DNA of 64,000 nucleotides from an uncultured Ectothiorhodospiraceae bacterium (GTDB lineage: Bacteria; Pseudomonadota; Gammaproteobacteria; Nitrococcales; Nitrococcaceae), in assembly GCA_913056385.1 (NCBI GenBank), contig CAJXND010000003.1, forward strand, positions 18,690 to 82,689. The letters are read 5' to 3'. The notes below the pieces were generated by a model. The model made no database searches, was not told the DNA's origin, and was given only the letters and a program-made list of their open reading frames with translations. This document shows positions 4,083-64,000 of the stretch, in pieces. Each line of letters opens with the position of its first letter. Position 1 is the first letter of the stretch. A program made the position numbers and the translations under genes.

Positions 4083-5042
4083 ATGGCCGGCTGTTCGGAA
4101 TTCGACCTCATTGACCGCTATCTGGCGCGGCTCGGTGCCGGGCGCGACGACGTGGTGCTGGGTCCGGGCGACGATGCTGCCATTACCCGGGGCGGTGGAA
4201 AGCCACTGCTGATGGCTCTGGATACCCTGGTGGAGGGGGTGCATTTCCCCGTGGACCTGCCGGCGGAGTGGATCGGTTACCGGGCGCTGGCGGTAAACCT
4301 GAGCGATATCGCCGCCATGGGCGGCGAGCCCTGCTGGGCGTTGCTCGGCCTGACACTGCCGGCCCCCGACGAGGCCTGGGTGGCGCCATTCGCCGAGGGC
4401 CTGGGCCGTCTGGCGAGGGCGTTCGGTGTCGCCGTCATCGGCGGTGATGTCACCCGTGGGCCATTGACGGTGAGCCTGCAGATCACCGGCCGGGCAACCG
4501 GCCCCGCACTGCGACGCGACGGGGCCAGTGTCGGGGACAGGGTCTGGATCTCCGGGCGACCGGGTGAGGCCGCCGCGGGTCTCGGGGTCTGGCAGCAGGG
4601 CGACGCGCGGGAGCAGGCACGATGGCAGGGCCTGCGGCAGGCGTTCATCGCCCCCCGCCCCCGGGTTGCCCTGGGTCAGGCGCTGGCCGGCGTGGCCAGT
4701 GCCGCGATCGACCTCTCTGATGGTCTGGCCGCCGACGCCGGTCATATCGCCGCGCGCAGCGGCGTGGCGCTGCATCTCGACCCATCATGCTGCCGACCCT
4801 CGGCGCGGCTGCTGCGCTGGGCGGGAGAAGCCGGGGCGTATCGCCTGCAGCTCGGCGGGGGGGATGACTACGAGCTCTGCTTCACCGCTCCGGCGGAGGC
4901 GGATGCCGCGGTCCGGGCCGCAGCCCGACGCGCCCGATCGCCGGTGCGCTGCATCGGCGAGGTGGGCGACGGCGAGGGGATCTGGTGGGGTGATCACCGC
5001 ATCGGGGAGGCGGCCGCCGGCTACCGGCATTTCTCGGTTTGA
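4083..5042 (+). CDS. thiL: Thiamine-monophosphate kinase
   Basis: SEFDLIDRYLA, GPGDDAAI, AIDLSDGLAADAGHIA motifs; ATG at 4083 preferred over upstream TTG at 4071. Confidence 0.93.
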   Translation: MAGCSEFDLIDRYLARLGAGRDDVVLGPGDDAAITRGGGKPLLMALDTLVEGVHFPVDLPAEWIGYRALAVNLSDIAAMGGEPCWALLGLTLPAPDEAWVAPFAEGLGRLARAFGVAVIGGDVTRGPLTVSLQITGRATGPALRRDGASVGDRVWISGRPGEAAAGLGVWQQGDAREQARWQGLRQAFIAPRPRVALGQALAGVASAAIDLSDGLAADAGHIAARSGVALHLDPSCCRPSARLLRWAGEAGAYRLQLGGGDDYELCFTAPAEADAAVRAAARRARSPVRCIGEVGDGEGIWWGDHRIGEAAAGYRHFSV

Positions 5043-50117: not shown

Positions 50118-50341
50118 CGGATAACGGTGAGCCGGACAACGGGCAGCGTCGGCTGTCGGTCTGGCAGGTGATCAAGAGCACTGCGGCGGCGGCCTTCGGC
50201 GTGCAGACCGAAAACGCGCGACGCCGCGATTTCACCCAGGGCAGCGCGGCGAGTTTCATCATCGCCGGGCTGCTGTTCACCGTGGCCTTCGTGGTGGGCC
50301 TGCTGGTCGTGGTTAACCTGGTACTGAGCCAGGCCGGCTAG
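50114..50341 (+). CDS. DUF2970 small membrane protein
   Basis: LSVWQVIKSTAAAAFGVQTENARRRDFTQGS + one TM. Confidence 0.85.
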   Translation: MTDNGEPDNGQRRLSVWQVIKSTAAAAFGVQTENARRRDFTQGSAASFIIAGLLFTVAFVVGLLVVVNLVLSQAG

Positions 50342-51704
50342 CGGGCGCCAGGCGCGCCACCAGCCAGGTCATCGCGGCCGAACCCAGCAAGGCACCCAGG
50401 AACGGACCCAGCGTCGGGGTCGCGTCGGGGAAGCTGGCGCCCAGCAGGCCGGCGGCGATCGAGCCATCCGCGACGCTGCCTGGCACCACCGCGCCGACCA
50501 GCCCGGCCAGCGCGCCGGCAATGGCTGCTCTGGGCGGGACCCGGTCGGACAGGCCGCTCAGCAGCGGGACCACGGCGGTGGCGCAGAGCAAATCCGCGAT
50601 CAGGAAGAGTCGCAGCACGGAGATTTCCTGCAGGGCGAGCCCGACCACCGGCAGCATCAGGAGTGCCGAGAGCCAGCGGGCGCCGCTCAGTCCCAGTCGG
50701 CCGCTCTCGGTCACGCCGAGCGAGACCAGCGCGTTCTGCAGCGTATCCACGGACGAGGCCACCAGCGTGATCGCCAGGATCAGCGCCGGCAGCGTGAGCC
50801 AACCGGGCGCATCGCCGAGGAGGGCGAAGAAGGGAATCGGCGGCGTCCCGAGGTCGAGTCCGCGCACCGCCGCGAGCACACCGGCACCACCGAGTATCGC
50901 CACGACGACAATGGTGGCCGCGCCGCCCAGCAGGGCACCGCGCCGCAGCGACCGATCGTCCCGGGCCGCCCAGACCCGCTGCCAGTAGCCTTGGTGAAAG
51001 AGGTTGGCGGCGGTGACAGCGATGATCAGCGTCGCGGCCACCGACAGCCCGGTGCCCGGCCCGGGCGAGGGGAAGCGGCCCGCCATCGGATCGGTCGACG
51101 CCGGGACCAGACCGAGGGCCCCGTAGCCCACCACGCCGATCAGTGCGATCAGCAGCCAGGCCTGCCAGCGATCGGTGATGAGGCTGGCGCGCAGGCCGCC
51201 GATCGCGGTGTAGAGCAGGGTGGCCATCGCCACGGCAACGATCACGTACTGCCCGTCGACCCCGGAGAGCAGGCTCGTAATGGCGCCGATGGCCGTGAGC
51301 TCCGCGGCGAGGAAACAGAGCATATAGAGCACTGACAGGGCGGCCACCCAGTACCGGAACCCCGTGCCGAAGCGGCTGGCCGTGAACTCCGTCAGGCTCC
51401 GGCCGCCGGGCAGGCGCCGGCGGATGGCCGGCCCCAGCAGACCGAGGATGATGAACGGCAGCGCCGAGCCCAGGGCATAGCCGGCGACCGCGACCGGACC
51501 GACGAACGCGCCGACCTCGGGCGGTGCGAACAGGATCCAGGCGCCCATGCCCGAGGCAAGGAAGGACAGCCCCACGGTGGTGCCGCTCTGCGAGCGTCGG
51601 GCGGTGAGATAGTCGTCGAGTCCCGCCGTATGACGGGCACGCAGTCCGAGGCCGATGAAAACAAGCAGTGCAGCGGCAATCGCCGCCAGGGTCAGGGCAG
51701 GCAT
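50313..51704 (-). CDS. Sodium:solute symporter family transporter (predicted thiamine or thiamine-precursor uptake)
   Basis: SSS-type multi-TM protein (SFLASGMGAWILFAPPEVG, LLYTAIGGLRASLITD); preceded by TPP riboswitch. Confidence 0.85.
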   Translation of the reverse strand: MPALTLAAIAAALLVFIGLGLRARHTAGLDDYLTARRSQSGTTVGLSFLASGMGAWILFAPPEVGAFVGPVAVAGYALGSALPFIILGLLGPAIRRRLPGGRSLTEFTASRFGTGFRYWVAALSVLYMLCFLAAELTAIGAITSLLSGVDGQYVIVAVAMATLLYTAIGGLRASLITDRWQAWLLIALIGVVGYGALGLVPASTDPMAGRFPSPGPGTGLSVAATLIIAVTAANLFHQGYWQRVWAARDDRSLRRGALLGGAATIVVVAILGGAGVLAAVRGLDLGTPPIPFFALLGDAPGWLTLPALILAITLVASSVDTLQNALVSLGVTESGRLGLSGARWLSALLMLPVVGLALQEISVLRLFLIADLLCATAVVPLLSGLSDRVPPRAAIAGALAGLVGAVVPGSVADGSIAAGLLGASFPDATPTLGPFLGALLGSAAMTWLVARLAPASRPGSVPG

Positions 51705-51874: not shown

Positions 51875-52600
51875 TCAGCCGGCGCTGAAACCACCGTCCA
51901 CGGGCAGGCTGATGCCGTGGATCATGCTGGCGGCGGGTCCCATGAGAAAGGCCACTGCCCCGGCGATCTCCTCCGGCTCGGCAAACCGGCCGAGCGGGAT
52001 GCGTGATTTCATCCGCCCGGCCTTCTCCGGATCGCTCCAGGCCTGTTCGGCCATCGGGGTCCGCGTGACGACGGGGTCGACGCTGTTGACCCGGATCCCC
52101 TGACTGCCCCACTCGACGGCCAGCACCCGGGTGATGGCATCGAGCCCCGCCTTGGATGCGCAGTAGGCGGCGTGTCCCGGCGTCCCGACCCAGGCGGCGA
52201 TGCTCGAGACGTTGACGATGGCCCCCGGACAGTCCCTTGCAATGAGACTCCGGGCGACCTGCTGGGCGAGGATCAGTGGTGCCGTCGTATTCACGGCCAG
52301 CGTCTCGTTCATCTGATCCACGCTGACGTTCAGCGCATCCTCCACCACGACCATGCCGGCGCAGTTGACCAGGCCGTCCAGTGGCATGATCGGGGCAACG
52401 GCCTGCTCAATGCGCCCGCTGTCGGCAAGGTCGCAGCGCAGGGTCCGGCAGCCCGTGGCGGCGGAGAGGGCCTCAAGATCGGCCGCGCTGCGGGCCAGGC
52501 CGATCACCTCGGCGCCCTCGGCCTGCAGCCGGGGGACGATGGCGGCACCGATGCCCTTGCCGGCGCCGGTGACCAGAATGCGCTGTCCGGCCAGTGACAT
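51875..52600 (-). CDS. SDR family oxidoreductase (possible L-xylulose reductase-like / polyol dehydrogenase)
   Basis: ILVTGAGKGIGAAIVPRL, NCAGMV, YCASKAGLD; ATG at 52600. Confidence 0.88.
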   Translation of the reverse strand: MSLAGQRILVTGAGKGIGAAIVPRLQAEGAEVIGLARSAADLEALSAATGCRTLRCDLADSGRIEQAVAPIMPLDGLVNCAGMVVVEDALNVSVDQMNETLAVNTTAPLILAQQVARSLIARDCPGAIVNVSSIAAWVGTPGHAAYCASKAGLDAITRVLAVEWGSQGIRVNSVDPVVTRTPMAEQAWSDPEKAGRMKSRIPLGRFAEPEEIAGAVAFLMGPAASMIHGISLPVDGGFSAG

Positions 52601-52604
52601 TCCG

Positions 52605-53165
52605 CTACTCCAGGTTGGTGTGACGGGCACGCATCCCGCCCTCTTCCGTACCCAGTCGCTCGCGCAACTGCCGCACCAGCAGTTCGCCGACGATGAAGAG
52701 CGCGCCCTCGTAGGCGCTGCCCATGGGCAGGATGGCCCCGTCGTTGCCGCCCCCGGCCATGGTGCGCGCCGGGAGCTGCAGCACGATATCGGCATGACCG
52801 CCGAGGGCGGCGCGGGGCTGTGCGGTCAGTAACACCACCCGCGCGCCGGCATCCCGGGCGACCGTCATGAGTGCGGACACGGTGGCGAAGTGGCCGGGCC
52901 CGGCACTGACCAGCAACAGATCCCCCCGGGCGATCGGCGGCGCGGTCATGTCACCGACCACGGCGGTCTCCAGGCCGAGGTGGTAGAGCCGCATGGTAAG
53001 GGCCCGGATCATCAGGCCCTCGCGGCCGACCCCATAGCAGGCAACGCGTCGGGCGGTGGCGATGGCCTCCATCACCGCCGTGAGGTTGTCCGGGTCGACG
53101 GCATCGAATACCCCGGCGATTTCATCGCAGGCCCGTCGGGCATTCAGCGCCAGTGTGCCCGTCAT
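52605..53165 (-). CDS. SIS-domain sugar isomerase (6-phospho-3-hexuloisomerase-like)
   Basis: RRVACYGVGREGLMIRALTMRLYHLGLETAVVGDMTAPPIARGDLLLVSAGPG. Confidence 0.85.
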   Translation of the reverse strand: MTGTLALNARRACDEIAGVFDAVDPDNLTAVMEAIATARRVACYGVGREGLMIRALTMRLYHLGLETAVVGDMTAPPIARGDLLLVSAGPGHFATVSALMTVARDAGARVVLLTAQPRAALGGHADIVLQLPARTMAGGGNDGAILPMGSAYEGALFIVGELLVRQLRERLGTEEGGMRARHTNLE

Positions 53166-54142
53166 GATGCCGTCTCCGTGGTGAGCGCGATGGCGGTGTC
53201 CTCATCGGTGACGAACACATCGGCATAGCCGCCCCGCAGGACGGCGAGATTGGCGGCGCGCTTGTGCTCGCCCCCGGAAATCACCACGGTCCACGGGTTT
53301 TCACGCAGGGCCTCCAGGTCGATGGCCACGGTGCGGCGGTTGAGGGAATGGTCGATCAGCTCGCCGTTGGCATCGATGAAGTGCCCGAGCAGATCGCCCA
53401 CCGCGCCGGCGGCCAGCAGTTCGTCGAGATCGCCGTCATCACTCAGCCCGTACTGGACAATCAGTGACTGCGTGATGTCGCCCACCGTGACGATGCTGAT
53501 GTCGCTCGCCAGCGCCTTGTCGTGCGTCTCGCGAATGGCCCCCTGGCGCAGGATGATGTCGCGGTCGGCCTCGCTGCCCGCGTAGATGGGTGCGGCATAG
53601 AAGTGGCGGTCGGCACCGTAGCGATCGGCGAAATCCGAGATGATCTCGAAGGTGTTGATGTGAGAGCAGTGGGCGAGCCCACCCTGCAGGGAGATCACCG
53701 AGACATCCTGCCGGTTGCGCGCGGGCAGGGCCCGGATGACCGAGCGCAGGGTCTGCCCCCAGCCGATGCCTACGTTCATGCCGTCCTCGATGCGCTCATC
53801 GAGGTACTCGGCGCCACCGACGCCCAGGGTCTCCCGGATCATGGACGGATCCGCCGGGTTGGGGATGACCACCGCCTCGCGCAGGCGGAAGCGCTGGATG
53901 AGCGCCTCCTCCAGCGCGATGCAGGGTGTCAGTCGTCCGTTGATGGTGATCTGCACGAGTCCGCTCTCGCGGCAGGCCGCGAGGAGCCGATTGATCCGCA
54001 CCCGGCTCATGCCCAGGCGATTGGCGATCTGCTGCTGGGTCAGGTTGCCGACGAAGTAGTACCAGGCCACCCGGGTCTGCAGTTGTTCCTCCGGATCCAC
54101 GCCGCCACGAAGCGGTTCGGCGTCAGGCTGAGGCAGATTCAT
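53162..54142 (-). CDS. SorC/DeoR-type sugar-binding transcriptional regulator
   Basis: HTH LTQQQIANRLGMSRVRINRLLAACRESGLVQI and SorC sugar-binding domain. Confidence 0.9.
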   Translation of the reverse strand: MNLPQPDAEPLRGGVDPEEQLQTRVAWYYFVGNLTQQQIANRLGMSRVRINRLLAACRESGLVQITINGRLTPCIALEEALIQRFRLREAVVIPNPADPSMIRETLGVGGAEYLDERIEDGMNVGIGWGQTLRSVIRALPARNRQDVSVISLQGGLAHCSHINTFEIISDFADRYGADRHFYAAPIYAGSEADRDIILRQGAIRETHDKALASDISIVTVGDITQSLIVQYGLSDDGDLDELLAAGAVGDLLGHFIDANGELIDHSLNRRTVAIDLEALRENPWTVVISGGEHKRAANLAVLRGGYADVFVTDEDTAIALTTETAS

Positions 54143-54179
54143 CGTTGTTACTCCCCGGTCGACGGTGATAGGCCGTTGC

Positions 54180-55019
54180 TTACTTGACCGCGCCCATGGT
54201 CAGACCCTGGACCAGTCGCCCGGAGACGAGCATGGCAAAAATCACCATCGGTAGCACGATCATCGTACCCGTGGCCATGATCACGCCCCAGGGCAGCTCG
54301 TAGCCGCTCATGAAGCTGGTCGCGGCCAGCGGCGCCGTCCGTGCCTGGGTGCGCGTGAGCACCAGGGCGTAGAGCAGATCGTTCCAGGCGAAGATGAATG
54401 ACAGGATCGCCGAGACCACCACGCCGGGCATGGCCAGCGGCAGATTGATGCGCCAGAAGATGGTCCAGGCGCGGGCCCCCTCCAGCCGTGCCGCCTCGTC
54501 CAGCGCCACCGGGACACCGCGGAACTGATCGGTGCAGATCCAGACCACGATGGGCAGGGTGAAGGTCAGGTAGATCAGGATCAGCACCAGGTGGGTGTCG
54601 ATGAGGTCGAGCGAGTTGGCGATCAGGAATACCGGAACGGCCAGCACGATGGGGCTGACCATGCGGTTGGTGATGTACCAGAACCACAGTTCGCGCTTGC
54701 CCCGGAACTCGTAGCGCGCCAGCGCGTAGGCGGCCGGCGTACCCAGCACCACCGCCAGCAGGGTTGTGCAGGAGGCCACGATGGTGGAGTTCAGCAGCGC
54801 ATGGGCGACGCCGGAGTCGAACAGCGCCTCGCGGTAGTTGGCGAGCGTGGGCGAGAAGAACCACACCGGATCGCGGGCGACGGCGTCGGCGCGGGTCTTC
54901 AGGCTGGTGGTGACCATCCAGTAGAACGGGAAAATGGAGGTGAGGACCACCACGGCCAGACCGAGGAAGTGACCGACGGGCGCGATGCGGCGCCGGGTCG
55001 CGGCGGCTTCGGCGCTCAT
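54180..55019 (-). CDS. Carbohydrate ABC transporter permease (MalG type)
   Basis: Binding-protein-dependent permease EAA motif EAARLEGARAWTIFWRINLPLAMPG; ATG at 55019. Confidence 0.92.
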   Translation of the reverse strand: MSAEAAATRRRIAPVGHFLGLAVVVLTSIFPFYWMVTTSLKTRADAVARDPVWFFSPTLANYREALFDSGVAHALLNSTIVASCTTLLAVVLGTPAAYALARYEFRGKRELWFWYITNRMVSPIVLAVPVFLIANSLDLIDTHLVLILIYLTFTLPIVVWICTDQFRGVPVALDEAARLEGARAWTIFWRINLPLAMPGVVVSAILSFIFAWNDLLYALVLTRTQARTAPLAATSFMSGYELPWGVIMATGTMIVLPMVIFAMLVSGRLVQGLTMGAVK

Positions 55020-55897
55020 AGCTCGGCCTCCTTGTAGACATAGCGGATGTAGAGTCGCGAGAGCACGATGCAGAAGACCAGCAGGACCACGGCCTGGGCC
55101 GAGGCGAGGCCGAGGTCGAAGACCCGGAATCCGACCCGCTGGATGTAGACACTGATGAGCTCGGTGGCGGCGCCGGGGCCACCTCGCGTCATGGTGAAGA
55201 TTTTGTCGAACTCCTTGAGCACGTCCGCCGTGCGAAGGATCAGGATGGCGGTGAGCCCCGGCAGCAGAAACGGCATCTGGACATGACGGAGGATACGCAG
55301 GGCGCTCGGCGTCTCGAGCCTTGCCGCCTCCTCGGTCTCCTTCGGCACCATGCTCAGGCCGGCGAGCAGGATGAGTGTGCAGAACGGGGTCCACTGCCAG
55401 ACGTCCATGATGATCAGGGCGACGAAGGCCATGGTGGGGTCACCCAGCCAGTCGGTCACCGGAATGCCGACCCAGCCGAGCATGTCGTTGGCCACGCCGA
55501 ATTCACGGTTGAAGATGAGTCGGCCGATCAGACCGACCACGGCATAGGTGGTCGCCAGCGGGATCACCAGCGAAACCCTCGCCACGGAGCGCATGAAACT
55601 CAGCCCCGGCCGGTGGAGCAGCAGCGCGGCCCACAAGCCGATGGCGATCTGTATCGGAACGGCGGTCACCAGGAAGGTGACGGTGCGCCCCAGGGATGAC
55701 CAGAACGTGCCGTCGGTGAGCACCGTCAGGTAATTCTCGAGACCGACGAATGGTTTGCCCGCGGCAGGTCGCGCCAGATTGTACTCGTGCAGCGAGTTGA
55801 ACACGGCGAACAGGATCGGTGCCAGGCCGATGGCCAGCAGGGCAATCACCGATGGCGCGATGAACCAGAAGGCCGGAGTGTTGGATCGGCTCGACAT
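55016..55897 (-). CDS. Carbohydrate ABC transporter permease (MalF type)
   Basis: EAA-like motif EAARLETPSALRILRHVQMPFLLPG. Confidence 0.92.
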   Translation of the reverse strand: MSSRSNTPAFWFIAPSVIALLAIGLAPILFAVFNSLHEYNLARPAAGKPFVGLENYLTVLTDGTFWSSLGRTVTFLVTAVPIQIAIGLWAALLLHRPGLSFMRSVARVSLVIPLATTYAVVGLIGRLIFNREFGVANDMLGWVGIPVTDWLGDPTMAFVALIIMDVWQWTPFCTLILLAGLSMVPKETEEAARLETPSALRILRHVQMPFLLPGLTAILILRTADVLKEFDKIFTMTRGGPGAATELISVYIQRVGFRVFDLGLASAQAVVLLVFCIVLSRLYIRYVYKEAEL

Positions 55898-55958
55898 GGG
55901 ATTCTCTCTTCTCGGGAAGACGGCGCCCGGGCATCCCCGGGCGCCGGTCGGTTGCCGA

Positions 55959-57299
55959 TTACTTCAGGAGCGGCTTGTCGCCGTCGTAATAGCCGGCGTC
56001 GTCGAGGACCTCCTCGACCTTGTCACCGAGGTCGGCCGCGCCTTCCTCGACATCCACCTCACCGAGCATCATGCGGGTGCCATCCAGGGCGATGATTTCG
56101 GAGAGCTCCGGCCATTCCGGGAAGCGTGGCCGGAAAGAGGCCACTGCAGTGTCAGCCTCCCAGGACTGGACCATGGGCGGGATATAGCTGTACGCCTCGA
56201 GCAGTGCCTCATCCTCGTACACGCCCATACGGCCGCTGACGCCACCGGCCTCGACGAAGTCACGGGCCATCTCCTGGCCGGTAATCCACTGGATGAACAG
56301 CCATGAAGCGATCTGCTCGTCGGTGCTGCTTCCCGAGTTCACCGCCAGCGAGAAACCACCCAGCGCCGGCTTGAGGCCGGCCGGGCCTTCCGGCTCGGTG
56401 GTCACGCCCAGGCAGTCGACGATGGTCGACTGGTCCGCGTCGGCCAGCGTGGGATAGAAGGCGGACCATTCGGTGATCATCGCCACCTGGCCCTGAGCGA
56501 GGGCATCCACGGCCTCGGCATGGTCATAGTCGACGATGCCCGGGGGCATGTACTCCATCAGGTCCTGGCGGAACTGCAGGCCGCGGAGCGACTCCTCGGA
56601 GGTCAGGTTGGAGCGGAAGTCCTCGTCCAGCAGCGAGCCGCCGAAGGGCCAGAGCACCCGCATGAAGCTATCCGCGGACTGCGTCTCACCACGCCGCGAC
56701 TGCAGGGCGAAGGCGTACTGGTTGGCGTCGGCATCGGTGAGTGCCGGGCCGTACTCGGTCATCAGTTCGGTCCAGGTCTCCGGCGGGCCGTCGAAGCCGG
56801 CCTCCTCGAGCATGCACTGGTTGTAGAACATCAGCCCCGAGTAGTTATCGAAGGGCAGGCCGTAGACCACGCCATCCCAGGTGCCGAAGGAATCGAGCAG
56901 GACCGGGAAGAAATCATCCAGGGCGAGGTCGGGGTCGGCCAGGGCGGGATCGTCGTAGAACTCCGACAGCGGCGTCAGCCAGCCGTTGGCGGCAAACTCG
57001 CCGATCCACACCACGTCCACCAGGGCGACATCGATGTCACCCCCGCCGACGAAGTTCAGGACCTGACGCTCGCGGGAATTCTCGTAGGGCAGTGTCTCCC
57101 AGGTGACGTCGATACCGGTTCGCTCCTCGAACTCCGGCACGAGCTCGGCGGCGGCCTTGTAGCCCGGACGATCCAGGAACACGGCCTTGATGCTGGTGCC
57201 CTCATAGGGGGCGGCGGCTTCTTCCAGCGACCAGGCCAGGGCCTGCCCGCTGACAGTCATGGCCGCGGCTGCGGCCAGTGCGGTTGCGTATGCACGCAT
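55959..57299 (-). CDS. Carbohydrate ABC transporter extracellular substrate-binding protein (family 1)
   Basis: Signal peptide; [42 protein letters not shown]; strongly acidic. Confidence 0.9.
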
Positions 57300-57359
57300 T
57301 GCTACTCCTCCTCGTTAAAATCAGGGTTTTTCACCCCGCTTACGGTGATCGTTTCCGGT

Positions 57360-58391
57360 TCATGGCTCGAAGCATTCCCGAGGCACGATCAGGCTCTTGA
57401 TCACGCCATCGCGCCGCTCGGTCTGCAGCCGGAAGGCCTCGTCGGCCTGCTCCAGCGGGAAGCGATGGGTCACGATGGCGTCCACATCCACCTCGCCGGC
57501 GGCCACCAGGCGGATCGCCCGCGGATAGACATGACCCATGCGCCGGATGAATTTGATGACCAGCCCCTTGCGCCGGGCCTGGGCGGCGTCCAGGGCGTAG
57601 CGATTGCCGTCCGGGATGCCGACGATCATGGCGCGGCCGCCGATGGCCGCGGCATCCACGGCAAGCTGCAGGCCGGCCGGGTCATTGGTGGCCTCGAGCA
57701 CCAGATCGCAGCCGCGCCCATCGGTGCCCGCCTCGATGCAGGTCAGATCCTGGCCTGCCGTGTCGGCCCCCAGCGAGAGGGCCTTCTCGAGCCGTTCGGC
57801 GCAGGGATCCACGGCGTAGATATGCTCGGCCCCGGCGCGGCGAGCGAGCTGCAGAAGGCACAGCCCGATGGTGCCGCAGCCAATCACCGCCACCGACTCC
57901 AGGACCCGCTGATGAGCGAGATCCATGGCCTGGATGGCCACGCCCAGCGGCTCGAGCATCATGGCCTGGGCCGGGGTGAAGTGATCCGGTACCGGATGGA
58001 TCTGCGCGGCATCCACCGCGATCAGCTCGGTCATTGCGCCGTTGAACGGGGGGGCACCGGTGAACTCGACATTGGGGCAGAGATTGACGTCACCCCGCTC
58101 ACACCATTCGCAGTGGCCGCATGGACGGGCGGGGTCGACGGCGACGAGCTGACCCCGGCGAAGTCCCAGCGCGGGATGGTCGTGAACGATCCAGCCGGCG
58201 AACTCGTGGCCGGGGATGAACGGGGCATGGATGTGGGCGCTGCCGATGCCGCCCTCCAGGTAATAGTGCAGATCGCTGCCGCAGACACCGATGCCGGCAA
58301 CCTGCACCAGAACCTCGCCGGCAGCGGGTTCCGGTGCCGTCTCCTCGCCCGTTCTGACATCCCGAACGCCGTGTATATACGTGGCCCGCAC
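57360..58391 (-). CDS. Zinc-type medium-chain alcohol (polyol) dehydrogenase
   Basis: GVCGSDLHYYLEGGIG, GHEFAG, CGHCEWCERGDVNLC; GTG at 58391 (SD GGGGGAG, MRATYIHGVRD) favoured over ATG at 58418. Confidence 0.88.
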   Translation of the reverse strand: MRATYIHGVRDVRTGEETAPEPAAGEVLVQVAGIGVCGSDLHYYLEGGIGSAHIHAPFIPGHEFAGWIVHDHPALGLRRGQLVAVDPARPCGHCEWCERGDVNLCPNVEFTGAPPFNGAMTELIAVDAAQIHPVPDHFTPAQAMMLEPLGVAIQAMDLAHQRVLESVAVIGCGTIGLCLLQLARRAGAEHIYAVDPCAERLEKALSLGADTAGQDLTCIEAGTDGRGCDLVLEATNDPAGLQLAVDAAAIGGRAMIVGIPDGNRYALDAAQARRKGLVIKFIRRMGHVYPRAIRLVAAGEVDVDAIVTHRFPLEQADEAFRLQTERRDGVIKSLIVPRECFEP

Positions 58392-58414
58392 CGGCTGCTC
58401 TCCCCCTGGATTGA

Positions 58415-58468
58415 ACATTTGTCTTGCTTAGGTCACAAATGTAATATCCGATGACATCGGCTTGTCAA
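58415..58468. promoter_or_regulatory. Overlapping divergent promoters with two palindromes (putative SorC-family operator region)
   Basis: Plus: TTGTCT (58419-58424), N17, TAATAT (58442-58447). Minus: TTGACA (58468-58463), N16, TATTAC (58446-58441). Inverted repeats ACATTTGT-N12-ACAAATGT (58415-58442) and CCGATG-A-CATCGG (58448-58460). Confidence 0.7.
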
Positions 58469-58501
58469 GCCGGCACGAAAAACGAGCAGGGAGGAGAGTC
58501 G

Positions 58502-59611
58502 ATGACGGCGGTGAGCCTGTCGCATATCGAGAAGCGCTACGGTGATACACCGGTGCTCAAGGACATCAACATCGATGTCGAGGAGCGGGAATTCATGGTC
58601 TTTGTCGGCCCATCCGGGTGCGGCAAGTCAACGCTACTGCGCAGCATTGCCGGGCTGGAATCGGTCGAGGGCGGGCAGATCCGCATCGGTGGCGATGACA
58701 TGACGCATGTCGATCCCTCCCGGCGGGGCGTGGCCATGGTCTTTCAGTCCTACGCGCTCTTCCCGCACATGAGCGTGTTCGAGAACATCGCCTTCGGGCT
58801 GCGGATGGCCAAACGGCCGGCATCGGAGATCCGGCAGCGCGTGAACGACGCGGCGGCGGTCCTGCAGATCGAGGCACTGCTCGATCGCAAGCCGAGGGCC
58901 CTATCCGGCGGGCAACGACAGCGCGTGGCCGTCGGCCGGGCGATCGTTCGCGATCCGCGGGTTTTTCTGTTCGATGAGCCCCTGTCCAACCTCGATGCGG
59001 CGCTACGCGTACAGATGCGGCTCGAGATCATCCGGCTGCATCAGCGCCTGGATGCGACCATGATCTACGTCACCCATGATCAGACCGAGGCCATGACCAT
59101 GGCCGATCGCATCGTCGTGCTGCGTGACGGGCGCGTCGAGCAGATCGGTAGCCCCCTGGAACTCTACCGGCGGCCGGCCAATCGCTTCGTGGCGAGCTTC
59201 ATCGGCTCGCCGCGCATGAATTTCCTCGAGGTCGGTCTGGACGGCCTGGCGGAGAACCACCAGCCGAGGGTGATCCTCCCCGGCGGCGGCAAGCTGACAC
59301 TCCCCGTCGACGGAGAAGGCCTCGTTGATCAGAGGGTCAGCCTGGGGATCCGGCCGGAGCATATCGTCGAGCCCGGTCAGACCGGAGACAGCGATCTGCA
59401 TCTGACCGGCGAAGCGCAGGTGGTCGAGCATCTGGGCGGCGAGACACTCATCCACGTGCGGCTCACCGACGACAGGCAGATCGAGGTGAAGGCCTCCGGT
59501 GATACCACGGTCAAGCCGGGCGACCACATCGAGGTGGGCGTCTCCGCCCACCGCTGCCATCTGTTCGATGGCGCGGAGAAGGCCTGCGCGCCACTGACCG
59601 CCGTGCAGTAG
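58502..59611 (+). CDS. Carbohydrate ABC transporter ATP-binding protein (UgpC/MalK type)
   Basis: GPSGCGKSTLLRSIAGLE, LSGGQRQRVAVGRAIVRDPRVFLFDEPLSNLDA, C-terminal TOBE domain; ATG at 58502. Confidence 0.93.
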   Translation: MTAVSLSHIEKRYGDTPVLKDINIDVEEREFMVFVGPSGCGKSTLLRSIAGLESVEGGQIRIGGDDMTHVDPSRRGVAMVFQSYALFPHMSVFENIAFGLRMAKRPASEIRQRVNDAAAVLQIEALLDRKPRALSGGQRQRVAVGRAIVRDPRVFLFDEPLSNLDAALRVQMRLEIIRLHQRLDATMIYVTHDQTEAMTMADRIVVLRDGRVEQIGSPLELYRRPANRFVASFIGSPRMNFLEVGLDGLAENHQPRVILPGGGKLTLPVDGEGLVDQRVSLGIRPEHIVEPGQTGDSDLHLTGEAQVVEHLGGETLIHVRLTDDRQIEVKASGDTTVKPGDHIEVGVSAHRCHLFDGAEKACAPLTAVQ

Positions 59612-59624
59612 CCGGAACGAGTTG

Positions 59625-61160
59625 ATGACCGCCCCACTCATCGGCATCGACGTCAGCACCACGGGGGTCAAGGCCTGCGCCTGGCACCCGGACGGTCATT
59701 GCATCGACGAGGCGCGGGCGTCGCTGGCGCTGCAGCGACCGGGCCCGCACCGCTACGAGCAAGACCCGGAGGATTGGTGGGTTGCGGTCTGCAGGGTGCT
59801 CCGGGCACTGGGCGAACGCCTGCCCGTGGCGCCGGCGGCCCTTGCCATCGCCCATCAGCGGGAGACCTTCGTGGCATCCGGTGATGACGGCTCGCCACTG
59901 CATCCGGCCCTGCTGTGGCTGGACCGCCGCGGTGAGCCCTGGGTCAAGCGGCTTCATGAAGGCTTCCCCGCCGAGGCGATGCGAGCGTGCAGTGGCAAGA
60001 GCCCCAATTACGGGCCGGCGTTCTACAAACTCGCCTGGCTGGCCGAGGCCCGGCCGGGCATTTTCGGCTCCCTTGCCATGGTCTGCGATGTTCAGGCCTG
60101 GCTTGCGCGTCGGCTCACCGGGCGCGCGGTGACGAGCTGGACCGGTGCCGACCCCCTGGGGCTGTTCGATATCCGCCACATGGAATGGTCCGCCGAGCTG
60201 TGTGAGCGGGTCGGCCTGCGTACGGATCAGTTGCCAGGCGTGGTTGCGCCGGGCACGCGCATTGGCGGGCTGTCGAGAGATGCCGCCAGCGCCACCGGCA
60301 TGCCGGCGGGGACACCGCTGGTTGCCGCCGGCGGTGACGGGCAGATGGGTGGCCTGGCGGTGGACGCCCTGGATAACGGCCGGCTCTACCTCAACCTCGG
60401 CACAGCCGTGGTGGCCGGCGCGTGGTCGTCGGCGCCCGCCGTATCGCCCGCCTGGCGTACCCTCACCGCCGGGGCCGGTGAGGGTTACTACCTGGAGAGC
60501 AGCCTGCGCAGTGGTGCATTGCTCTCGGACTGGCTTCTCAAGCGGGTGGTGGGGCTCGATCCCGTGGCCGACGCGGCGGTTCTCGAGCGACTCGAGGCCG
60601 AGGCGGCGGCGCTTCCGCCCGGCGGATACGGCGCGTTACTGCTTCCCTACTGGGAGGGGGTGATGAACCCGCACTGGGATGATGCCGCCCGCGGCGCGAT
60701 TCTGGGGCTCTCCGATGCCGACGGCCGGGCCAGCCTCTACCGGGCGCTGATCGAGGGGGTGGCGCTGGAGCAGGCGGGATTCGTCAGTGCATTGCGGGTA
60801 GAGGCAGGGGTTGTCGCCCACGAGGCGGTGGCCACCGGCGGGCCGGCGGGCAGTGATCTGTGGTGCCGCATTCACGCTGATGCCATCGGCGTACCGGTGC
60901 GCCGACAGCCCGGGTTGGAGGCGGCGGCACTGGGAGCCGCCATCTGCGCTGCCTGCGGTGTCGGCATCTATCCGGATCTGGCCAGTGCGGCCCGGGCGAT
61001 GGCCCCGGCCGGGGGCGATGTATTTACGCCGGATCCCGACAACCAGGCGTTCTATGCGCGACTGCGCGGCATCCATGGCCGGATACATGAGCGCATGGCG
61101 CCACTGATGCATGAGCTGGAGGCGGCCCTCGCTGGGCAAAACCCCCTACACCGGGCATGA
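59625..61160 (+). CDS. FGGY-family carbohydrate kinase (xylulokinase-like)
   Basis: IGIDVSTTGVKA, LWLDRRGEPW, GGDGQMGGLAVDAL, EGVALEQAGFVSAL, ATGGPAGSDLWCRIHADAIGVPV. Confidence 0.9.
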   Translation: MTAPLIGIDVSTTGVKACAWHPDGHCIDEARASLALQRPGPHRYEQDPEDWWVAVCRVLRALGERLPVAPAALAIAHQRETFVASGDDGSPLHPALLWLDRRGEPWVKRLHEGFPAEAMRACSGKSPNYGPAFYKLAWLAEARPGIFGSLAMVCDVQAWLARRLTGRAVTSWTGADPLGLFDIRHMEWSAELCERVGLRTDQLPGVVAPGTRIGGLSRDAASATGMPAGTPLVAAGGDGQMGGLAVDALDNGRLYLNLGTAVVAGAWSSAPAVSPAWRTLTAGAGEGYYLESSLRSGALLSDWLLKRVVGLDPVADAAVLERLEAEAAALPPGGYGALLLPYWEGVMNPHWDDAARGAILGLSDADGRASLYRALIEGVALEQAGFVSALRVEAGVVAHEAVATGGPAGSDLWCRIHADAIGVPVRRQPGLEAAALGAAICAACGVGIYPDLASAARAMAPAGGDVFTPDPDNQAFYARLRGIHGRIHERMAPLMHELEAALAGQNPLHRA

Positions 61161-61196
61161 TGCGCCCGTGATCCATGGCCGGTTGCAGGGGCATCG

Positions 61197-62348
61197 ATGA
61201 GCAGAAAATCGTTCAGATGGGTGGCGGTTGCGGTGATCGCCCTCGGAGTGGCGGCCGCCACGGTTCCGGTCCTGATGGGATGGCAGGCCGAGCGGACCTG
61301 GCATGACCAGGTCGCGGCGCTGGATGCCCGGCTCGCGGACTCCCGGGAAGGCGCCGGTGCACGCATCGTCGACTATGAACGCGGGCTTTTCAGTGCCCGC
61401 GTCCGCACCATGCTCGAGCTGCCGCCCTCCGCCCTGGCGCCGCCCGTCCGGGCGACCCTCGGGCTGGCGGATGGCCCGGTCGAACTGCGACTCACCCAGT
61501 CGGTCCAGCACGGCTGGAGCAGTGCGGCATTTGATGGCTATCTGCAACCGGTCGGCGCGCTGGCCGGGCTCTTTGCCCGCCTCGGCGGGACCGACCGGAG
61601 CCTGCGCATCAGTGGCCGTATCGGGATCGGTCGGCAGTCGGTTGTGGTGCGGGCTGAATCACTCGCGGGGCCGCTGGATCGGCAGGGCCAGCTTCAACTG
61701 CGGTCTGATCCGATGCGGTTCGAGGCGGTACATGCCTCCCGCGATGGCCGGCTGACCGCGGAGCTCCTCTGGCAGGGGGTCGGGCTGGACGATGCGAATA
61801 ACGCCGCCGAGCTGCAGATCGATGGCCTGCAGGGCCGGACCAAGGCCCGGCGCATGGCCGGACTGATGGATCTTGATTTCGAGCTCGACTGGGAGCGGCT
61901 CTACCTGACCGACCAGCCGGTGCTGCGCGGCGGTCTCGGCCTGGAGATCGAACGCCTGGCACCGGCCGGCCTGGAGTCGGACTCGCGGTATGCCCTGGCC
62001 CTGCTCGCCGAGCCCGGGCCTCGGGCGGCGCTCACGCGGTTTCGCATGCAGGATGATGCCGGGGCGGGTCTGAGCGCGCGTGCCAATCTCGAGATCAAGC
62101 CCCGGATGGCGGAGTTGCTGCTGACGGGACAGAGCGGCATGGCACTGTGGTCGGCTCTGCACCTTGATGCGGAGCTCGGCATTGATGACGCGCTGATCGC
62201 CGCCATCCCCGCCGGGCAGGCGGACTGGGTCCGGCAGGCCCAGGCCTTCGGTATCCTCCGGCGGCAGGATGGCCAGTGGCGGCTCGAGGTGTCGATGGAT
62301 GAGGGCCGCCTGAGCGTCCATGGCCAGCCGTGGTGGAGTGGTGGCTAG
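61197..62348 (+). CDS. DUF945 (YdgA-like) family protein
   Basis: N-terminal TM and DYERGLFSARVRTMLELP, typical of DUF945. Confidence 0.78.
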   Translation: MSRKSFRWVAVAVIALGVAAATVPVLMGWQAERTWHDQVAALDARLADSREGAGARIVDYERGLFSARVRTMLELPPSALAPPVRATLGLADGPVELRLTQSVQHGWSSAAFDGYLQPVGALAGLFARLGGTDRSLRISGRIGIGRQSVVVRAESLAGPLDRQGQLQLRSDPMRFEAVHASRDGRLTAELLWQGVGLDDANNAAELQIDGLQGRTKARRMAGLMDLDFELDWERLYLTDQPVLRGGLGLEIERLAPAGLESDSRYALALLAEPGPRAALTRFRMQDDAGAGLSARANLEIKPRMAELLLTGQSGMALWSALHLDAELGIDDALIAAIPAGQADWVRQAQAFGILRRQDGQWRLEVSMDEGRLSVHGQPWWSGG

Positions 62349-62363
62349 TCACCGGAGTGCTGG

Positions 62364-63023
62364 ATGAATCTTGCCGCGGACAGTCTGCCGTCATGGATGG
62401 CCTGGGGGCTCACGGCGGTTTTCATGCTGGTTATCGGCCGCGCGGCGTGGCGGTCGCCCTGGCGCGCATTGCGGGCCAACGGGCTGGTGACGGTCTTCAT
62501 CGCGGCGACGGCACTGGCGGGGCTGCTCTGGAGCATGCAGGTGGGCGTGCGCGAAGGGCTGACGCTGCATCTGCTCGGCACGGCGAGCCTGGTGCTGGTC
62601 TTCGGACCCGCGCTTGCCATGATGGCCGGCGCCGGCGCGCTGCTGCTCACCATGGCCGCCGGCCAGACCGATGCCCTGATGGCGGGTTATCAGGGACTGC
62701 TGCTGGCGGTGCTGCCGGTCTGGGTGGCCGACGGGTCGCACCGGCTGCTACGCCGCCTGCTGCCGCCCAACCCGTTCATCTTCTTCCTCGGTAGCGGTTT
62801 TGTGGGCGGCATGCTGGCCCTGGCCGCCCCCATTCTCGTCTCCGCCGCGCTCATGGCCATTCTCGGCCTGCAGCCCGGCTGGGCCATCCAGCGCGACTAC
62901 CTCGCGCTGTTGCCGCTGGTGCTGTTCCCGGAGGGCTTCATCAACGGCGCGGTGATGACGGCGCTCGCCGTCTATCAGCCCGATTGGGTCCGAAGCTTCG
63001 ACGACGAGACCTATCTGCGCTAG
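62364..63023 (+). CDS. Energy-coupling-factor/CbiM-like integral membrane permease
   Basis: Six or so TM segments, LPPNPFIFFLGSGFVGGMLALAA, LLPLVLFPEGFINGAVMTALAVYQPDWV. Confidence 0.75.
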   Translation: MNLAADSLPSWMAWGLTAVFMLVIGRAAWRSPWRALRANGLVTVFIAATALAGLLWSMQVGVREGLTLHLLGTASLVLVFGPALAMMAGAGALLLTMAAGQTDALMAGYQGLLLAVLPVWVADGSHRLLRRLLPPNPFIFFLGSGFVGGMLALAAPILVSAALMAILGLQPGWAIQRDYLALLPLVLFPEGFINGAVMTALAVYQPDWVRSFDDETYLR

Positions 63024-64000
63024 AGCCGCTCGATCCGGGCCACCTGCTCGTCGATGCGCGCCAGCGCCGAACGACCCTCGGCGAGCTTGTCGCGCTCGCG
63101 CTGGACGACATCGGCAGGGGCCCGACTGACGAAGGCCTCGTTGGCGAGCTTGCCCTCGGTGCGCGCCAGATCGTCGGCGAGGCGCCGGCGTTCCTTGTCG
63201 AGCCTGGCCCGTTCGGCCGCCTTGTCGATGAGGCCGGCCATGGGGACGCGGACTTCGAGTTCGTCGACCAGGGCCAGGGCCGATTCCGGCGCCTCTTCGC
63301 CGGTTTCCAGCACAGTCACCGACGCCAGGCGGGCGAGGAAATCGAGCGCGGCGCGATGTCGGGCGAGCCACTGGCGGTCGAGATCGGCGGCGTTGCCGAG
63401 CAGCACCGGCAGAGGTTTGCCTGGCGGGATGTCCATCTCGCCACGGATGCGCCGGATGCCGAGAATGAAGCGCTGCAGCCAGTCGATCTCCGCCTCCGCG
63501 GCCGGGTCTTCGCGGCCGGCCTCGGCGATGGGGAAGGGCTGGGTCATGAGCGTCTCGCCATCCGCCCCGGCGAGTGGCGCCACCCGCTGCCAGATTTCTT
63601 CGGTGATGAACGGCATGATCGGATGCGCCAGACGCAGCAGCGTCTCGAGCACCCGCACCAGCGTCTGACGTGTGCCGCGCACGCGGGCGGGGTCGGCATC
63701 GCCCTGCAGGGTCGGTTTGCTGAGCTCGAGGTACCAGTCGCAGTACTCGTCCCAGGTGAACTCGTAGATCGCCTGCGCAGCCTGGTCCATGCGGTAGCCC
63801 TCGAGGGCCTCGATGACGGTGCGCTCGGTGTGCTGGAGTCGAGAGATGATCCAGCGCTCGGCGATGCCGAGTTCCGCCTCGTCATCCCCCTGCCCGCAGT
63901 CCTCGCCCTCGGTGTTCATCAGTGCGTAGCGCGCGGCATTCCAGAGCTTATTGCAGAGGTTGCCATAGCCATCGACGCGGCCCATGTCGAAGACGACATC
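63020..64000 (-). CDS. valS: Valyl-tRNA synthetase, C-terminal part (5' end outside window)
   Basis: DVVFDMGRVDGYGNLCNKLWNAARYALMN, PIMPFITEEIWQRVAP, C-terminal coiled-coil. Confidence 0.95.
   Translation of the reverse strand, partial: DVVFDMGRVDGYGNLCNKLWNAARYALMNTEGEDCGQGDDEAELGIAERWIISRLQHTERTVIEALEGYRMDQAAQAIYEFTWDEYCDWYLELSKPTLQGDADPARVRGTRQTLVRVLETLLRLAHPIMPFITEEIWQRVAPLAGADGETLMTQPFPIAEAGREDPAAEAEIDWLQRFILGIRRIRGEMDIPPGKPLPVLLGNAADLDRQWLARHRAALDFLARLASVTVLETGEEAPESALALVDELEVRVPMAGLIDKAAERARLDKERRRLADDLARTEGKLANEAFVSRAPADVVQRERDKLAEGRSALARIDEQVARIERL

Follow-up and report, generated by a model that had tools for sequence, protein, structure and literature searches.

A conserved two-arm operator within overlapping divergent promoters of a polyol locus, and its probable SorC/DeoR-type repressor

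Can a single short intergenic gap control both arms of a divergent polyol locus, and does one regulator act on both? We examined this question in a 64,000-nucleotide stretch of DNA (referred to as the window). On the minus strand, the gap is followed by a zinc-dependent polyol dehydrogenase-like gene (ADH, 57360-58391; Pfam ADH_N/ADH_zinc_N), an ABC sugar-binding protein (SBP, 55959-57299; SBP_bac_1), two ABC permeases (55016-55897 and 54180-55022; both BPD_transp_1), a SorC-family regulator (53162-54142), a 6-phospho-3-hexuloisomerase-like SIS-domain protein (52605-53165; TIGR03127 at 148.8 bits, under the cut-off of 160), a short-chain dehydrogenase (SDR, 51875-52600; adh_short_C2) and then a sodium:solute symporter (50313-51704). 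The plus arm consists of a MalK/UgpC-type ABC transporter ATPase (58502-59611; ABC_tran and TOBE_2, PRK11650 above cut-off), preceded by the Shine-Dalgarno sequence GGAGGAG at 58490-58496, and an FGGY-family, xylulokinase-like sugar kinase (59622-61160; FGGY_N and FGGY_C, XylB at 240 bits, below cut-off).

The extent of the gap depends on where ADH begins. The ATG at 58418 chosen by the ORF caller was dropped: it falls inside an operator arm, and at this position the ortholog is without an in-frame ATG. GTG 58391 and the upstream AGGGGGAG (58400-58407) align with GTG starts in the nearest ortholog, genome G017 (locus L013, SorC 76% identical), and in Arenibaculum (L037). Going by this alignment, ADH most likely begins at GTG 58391, which places the operator outside the coding region, sets the gap to the ATPase ATG 58502 at 110 bp (58392-58501) and leaves a minus leader of about 43 nt.

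The preliminary description had proposed two promoters facing away from each other in this gap, and all of their hexamers were found where it had placed them. The plus promoter has TTGTCT at 58419-58424, overlapping an operator arm, and, after N17, TAATAT at 58442-58447, with a predicted start near 58454. The minus promoter has TTGACA (TGTCAA on the plus strand, 58463-58468) and, after N16, TATTAC (GTAATA on the plus strand, 58441-58446), with a predicted start near 58434. The pseudo-symmetric -10 elements of the two strands therefore overlap, as had been described and as they also do in relatives, which is the arrangement that defines a bidirectional promoter. Judged from the hexamer positions the starts are about 20 bp apart; in E. 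coli bidirectional promoters the commonest start spacing is 18 bp, and spacings of 10 or 23 bp also occur (PMC12825309). The match to the sigma-70 consensus is moderate (6/6 and 4/6 for the minus promoter, 4/6 and 4/6 for the plus), and a consensus sigma-70 scan of 52000-64000 called no promoter, because the plus pair matches at 8/12 positions and the last T is missing from the minus -10.

Conservation of the two promoters was examined in 50 related loci, most of them from Burkholderiaceae and not fully independent of one another. In 48 of these, TTGACA begins precisely 26 bp ahead of the operator core and is absent from every other position within 60 bp, and 31 different spacers occur; the offset is the same in G017 and Arenibaculum. 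The spacing of 16 between TTGACA and the minus -10 is retained in the G017 locus, and the register of this -10 is uncertain, possibly off by 1-3 bp. The plus element reads TTGTAA-N17-TATATT in 46/50 loci and has TAATAT in the G017 locus. The TTGT of the plus -35 is present in 49/50 loci, a count that is confounded since these letters are part of the operator. One could argue that the minus promoter alone is real, that the operator sequence accounts for the plus hexamers and that the ATPase arm starts elsewhere; the plus hexamers do match only 8/12 consensus positions, and their TTGT belongs to the operator. We consider this rather unlikely: part of the plus -10 extends beyond the operator core, TATATT is kept at N17 in 46 loci as given above, and there is little space for another promoter before ATG 58502.

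The operator itself is a perfect ACATTTGT-N12-ACAAATGT repeat, and it lies across the plus -35/-10 at 58415-58442, exactly as the preliminary description had it. The arm ACATTTGT (58415-58422) is the one far from the minus promoter and holds the TTGT of the plus -35, while ACAAATGT (58435-58442) adjoins both -10 hexamers. Each arm is conserved as ACANNTGT and is itself palindromic (ACA-NN-TGT); in aligned copies the arms are 20 bp apart, or about two helical turns. In its extended form, read on the minus strand, the composite operator is TTACATTTGT-N12-ACAAATGTTC (58413-58444). One ACATTTGT/ACAAATGT pair is present in the 64-kb window and none in shuffles, and the 20-base extended operator has one site at ≤3 mismatches in the whole 1.95-Mb genome. 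The window holds 73 perfect 8-bp inverted repeats whose gap is 0-20, vs 46-73 in shuffles. On these sequence comparisons, the first palindrome is not significant by itself; it is conservation that makes it so.

Related loci were collected from genome contigs with an alignment query, which gave 64 loci; a query with the single SorC protein gave none. The divergent arrangement is shared by G017, which carries the motif in the corresponding gap. A second G017 copy, a perfect TTACATTTGT-N12-ACAAATGTAA, lies upstream of SIS-SDR, which is split from the main operon there, and a third heads a four-gene run (L094:6363-11219) encoding a fructose-6-phosphate aldolase, a ribulokinase-like protein, a xylulokinase and a D-psicose 3-epimerase-like protein, genes that are lacking in the window's locus. 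G018, another family member, has one copy upstream of a lone sorC and another in the divergent ATPase/SBP gap. Gene maps place the motif between ATPase and SBP/ADH in almost every one of about 45 Burkholderiaceae loci and in Arenibaculum; three Methylobacterium loci carry a weaker motif directly upstream of ADH, and several alphaproteobacterial relatives have no clear operator. Altogether 49 matches at ≤4 mismatches were counted in 1.18 Mb of related loci vs 0.3 in shuffles, where the related set includes two G018 contigs fetched again (L070, L071) as well as the Burkholderiaceae loci, which are not independent. The gap between the arms was 12 bp in eleven representative loci, among which no motif match was obtained at gaps of 6-11 or 13-18. 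A literature search, mostly outside subscription papers and RegPrecise, found no description of this operator.

As a side observation at L095:1484-4384 and 4421-4452, the perfect G017 copy before SIS-SDR closely precedes a divergent FAD/iron-sulfur oxidase-like gene as well, and this gene may belong to the same regulon.

The second palindrome fared differently. The perfect 13-bp CCGATGACATCGG (6+1+6) is present in the minus spacer at 58448-58460, and its symmetry is centred at the predicted plus start; it could be read as a second operator, for another regulator or for SorC acting at two sites. Such 6+1+6 palindromes occur at chance frequency, however, with 48 in the window vs 31-55 in shuffles. 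The G017 spacer is ACTGCCTGGAACCCGA: TTGACA, GATATT and the operator are retained there and the palindrome is lost. No comparable palindrome was found at this position in 50 other loci, where the longest is mostly 4-5 bp. For these reasons we rejected CCGATGACATCGG as a second operator; a function of this kind is extremely unlikely. Of the two palindromes proposed earlier for a search at orthologous loci, the ACATTTGT-N12-ACAAATGT repeat is thus conserved and CCGATGACATCGG is not; the regulatory role given to the latter was not borne out.

Next, we asked which protein might bind the operator. The product of 53162-54142 has a C-terminal effector domain of the SorC type, about 250 residues long (PF04198 Sugar-bind, residues 71-320, E 4.7e-61, 206.7 bits vs a cut-off of 27). 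Members of the DeoR subfamily have an HTH of only 50-60 residues and not the winged type of about 100, and the window protein has a short homeodomain-like HTH at about residues 23-70, with the effector domain from 71. Its nearest solved structures are LsrR, DeoR and SorC, which align over the full length from about residue 14-20; CggR aligns in the effector domain only. The protein scores below the named NCBIfam equivalogs (210/420 bits for the DeoR model and 173/486 bits for the LsrR model), and from these scores we place it in the same family as DeoR and LsrR, not as their ortholog. Its R47 aligns with DeoR R39, a residue that contacts bases (PMC11229326), and is kept in 6/6 aligned proteins from operator-bearing loci.

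The distribution of the operator points to the same protein. A SorC at least 49% identical is present in 3/95 relatives, all 3 of which carry operator copies at or beside their SorC loci. The other 92 relatives gave 4 scattered hits, each with 3 mismatches; a reversed control pattern gave 12 hits overall. On the SorC tree 3 changes suffice to explain the operator label vs 10.5 for shuffled labels, a score aided by near-copies. The motif is missing from the paralogous SorC genes L017-L022, which come from this genome and its genus. The additional G017 copies before SIS-SDR and before the aldolase-kinase-epimerase cluster indicate that the site goes along with the SorC regulon. The earlier suggestion that one regulator could switch both arms, with this SorC protein as the candidate, is therefore strengthened: the motif tracks the SorC subclade and, in relatives, precedes the transcription units that make up the locus. 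It is conceivable that the motif serves another regulator, encoded elsewhere, and merely accompanies the locus; binding by SorC is predicted, and ACANNTGT-type arms also occur in unrelated operators, e.g., CopY TACANNTGTA (PMC7253601). This we regard as very improbable, given that the operator is single-copy in the genome, that the ten locus proteins scanned include no regulator other than SorC, and that the site occurs with close SorC orthologs and upstream of sorC in G018.

G018 also has an orphan SorC that is 53% identical (L014:480-1400) and lies near a contig end. Although it is a member of the clade, no recognisable operator and no polyol genes were found beside it. No more close SorC proteins (E ≤1e-60) were detected in 369 genomes sampled from the class, and the distribution of the locus is accordingly patchy.

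We propose, with a probability of roughly 0.8, that a SorC/DeoR-type tetramer on the two arms represses the overlapping bidirectional promoter. The tetramer, made from the minus operon, would bind both ACANNTGT dimer sites and thereby cover the minus -10/start region (for ADH-SBP-permease-sorC-SIS-SDR) as well as the plus promoter from -35 to -10 (for ATPase-kinase). Both arms and sorC itself would be repressed together, the latter by negative autoregulation; since the bound protein would cover both promoter cores, shared repression with sorC autoregulation is the most likely outcome. A metabolite of the pathway would bring about release, and the probable candidate is a phosphorylated ketose made by the kinase. 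A free polyol is also a possible inducer by analogy, because EryD has been described as erythritol-binding. Computation gave the motif with its fixed gap, its conservation and the way it tracks the SorC clade; binding, the tetramer, repression, the inducer and the exact starts are what we infer. The preliminary description had expected the two promoters to compete for polymerase. The geometry makes this plausible. Basal competition was small, though, at the five E. coli bidirectional promoters put to the test (PMC12825309), so that shared repression is better supported than competition.

SorC might instead bind the operator and activate one or both arms, or activate one and repress the other. 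A S. meliloti eryD mutant failed on erythritol, with expression that fitted both positive and negative action, according to a secondary account (cited in PMC10433430). Activation is nevertheless improbable at this site, which overlaps both promoter cores, where a bound protein usually blocks polymerase; moreover, SmoC and EryD are repressors in reporter tests (PMC10433430, PMC10190533).

The proposed repression by a SorC tetramer resembles several known systems. DeoR and CggR bind as a dimer of dimers to two half-operators (PMC11229326), and the palindromic arms 20 bp apart would suit the same assembly, the tetramer here being proposed by analogy. The DeoR operator of Bacillus subtilis dra-nupC-pdp likewise serves a protein of the SorC/DeoR subfamily and has half-operators about two turns apart (PMC11229326). 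Its right half TTTACATATGTTCAA contains ACATATGT, which is an arm also in G017 and G018 and is close to the window's ACAAATGTTCAAT (PMC11229326), whereas its left half is another palindrome, ATTGAACAAAATTTCAAT; the DeoR operator is asymmetric and controls one promoter rather than two. The EryD/eryO system of Ochrobactrum is also a sugar-alcohol ABC-transporter locus, in which EryD acts as a repressor on a 29-bp operator within a promoter in the eryE-eryA gap (PMC10190533). This likeness rests on layout and not on operator sequence, and the stated ligand of EryD is erythritol, not a hexitol or pentitol. In the smo locus of Sinorhizobium meliloti, SmoC is an EryD-like regulator encoded beside a polyol ABC transporter and dehydrogenases, and mutant and reporter data identified it as a negative regulator (PMC10433430); unlike the window's sorC, smoC was reported to be transcribed separately, and the smo operator was not described (PMC10433430). 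E. coli bidirectional promoters such as PacrA/acrR share the overlapping pseudo-symmetric -10 elements, and AcrR represses both RNAs (PMC12825309). The present locus differs from PacrA/acrR in that its starts are predicted, its regulator is of the SorC type and the regulator's site is built into the promoter core. We regard the locus as a well-supported new instance of a type of switch that is already known.

More tentatively, and as a reading that is less likely than not, we suggest that operator and promoters form one fused element, in which an arm's TTGT serves as the plus -35, the outer flank as the shared -10 and the minus TTGACA is phase-locked to them; such an element would be kept in alpha-, beta- and gammaproteobacteria, with one tetramer controlling the transporter-ATPase arm and the transporter/enzyme arm. 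For a SorC clade of alpha-, beta- and gammaproteobacteria that is uncharacterised, the analysis provides a defined operator sequence, TTACANTTGT-N12-ACAANTGTAA, and predicts the local regulon. The locus is also a natural test case for repressor action on a bidirectional promoter, the rules of which are only now emerging (PMC12825309).

Two minor observations concern the pathway. The 6-phospho-3-hexuloisomerase-like SIS protein (52605-53165) shares the polyol locus with the FGGY kinase (59622-61160) and is not accompanied by a hexulose-phosphate synthase; the pair could hint at a route via a 3-ketohexose 6-phosphate to fructose 6-phosphate. A symporter 55% identical to that of the window (50313-51704) lies near the G018 SorC locus (L016:14174-15487), which suggests that the symporter is a second transporter tied to the pathway.
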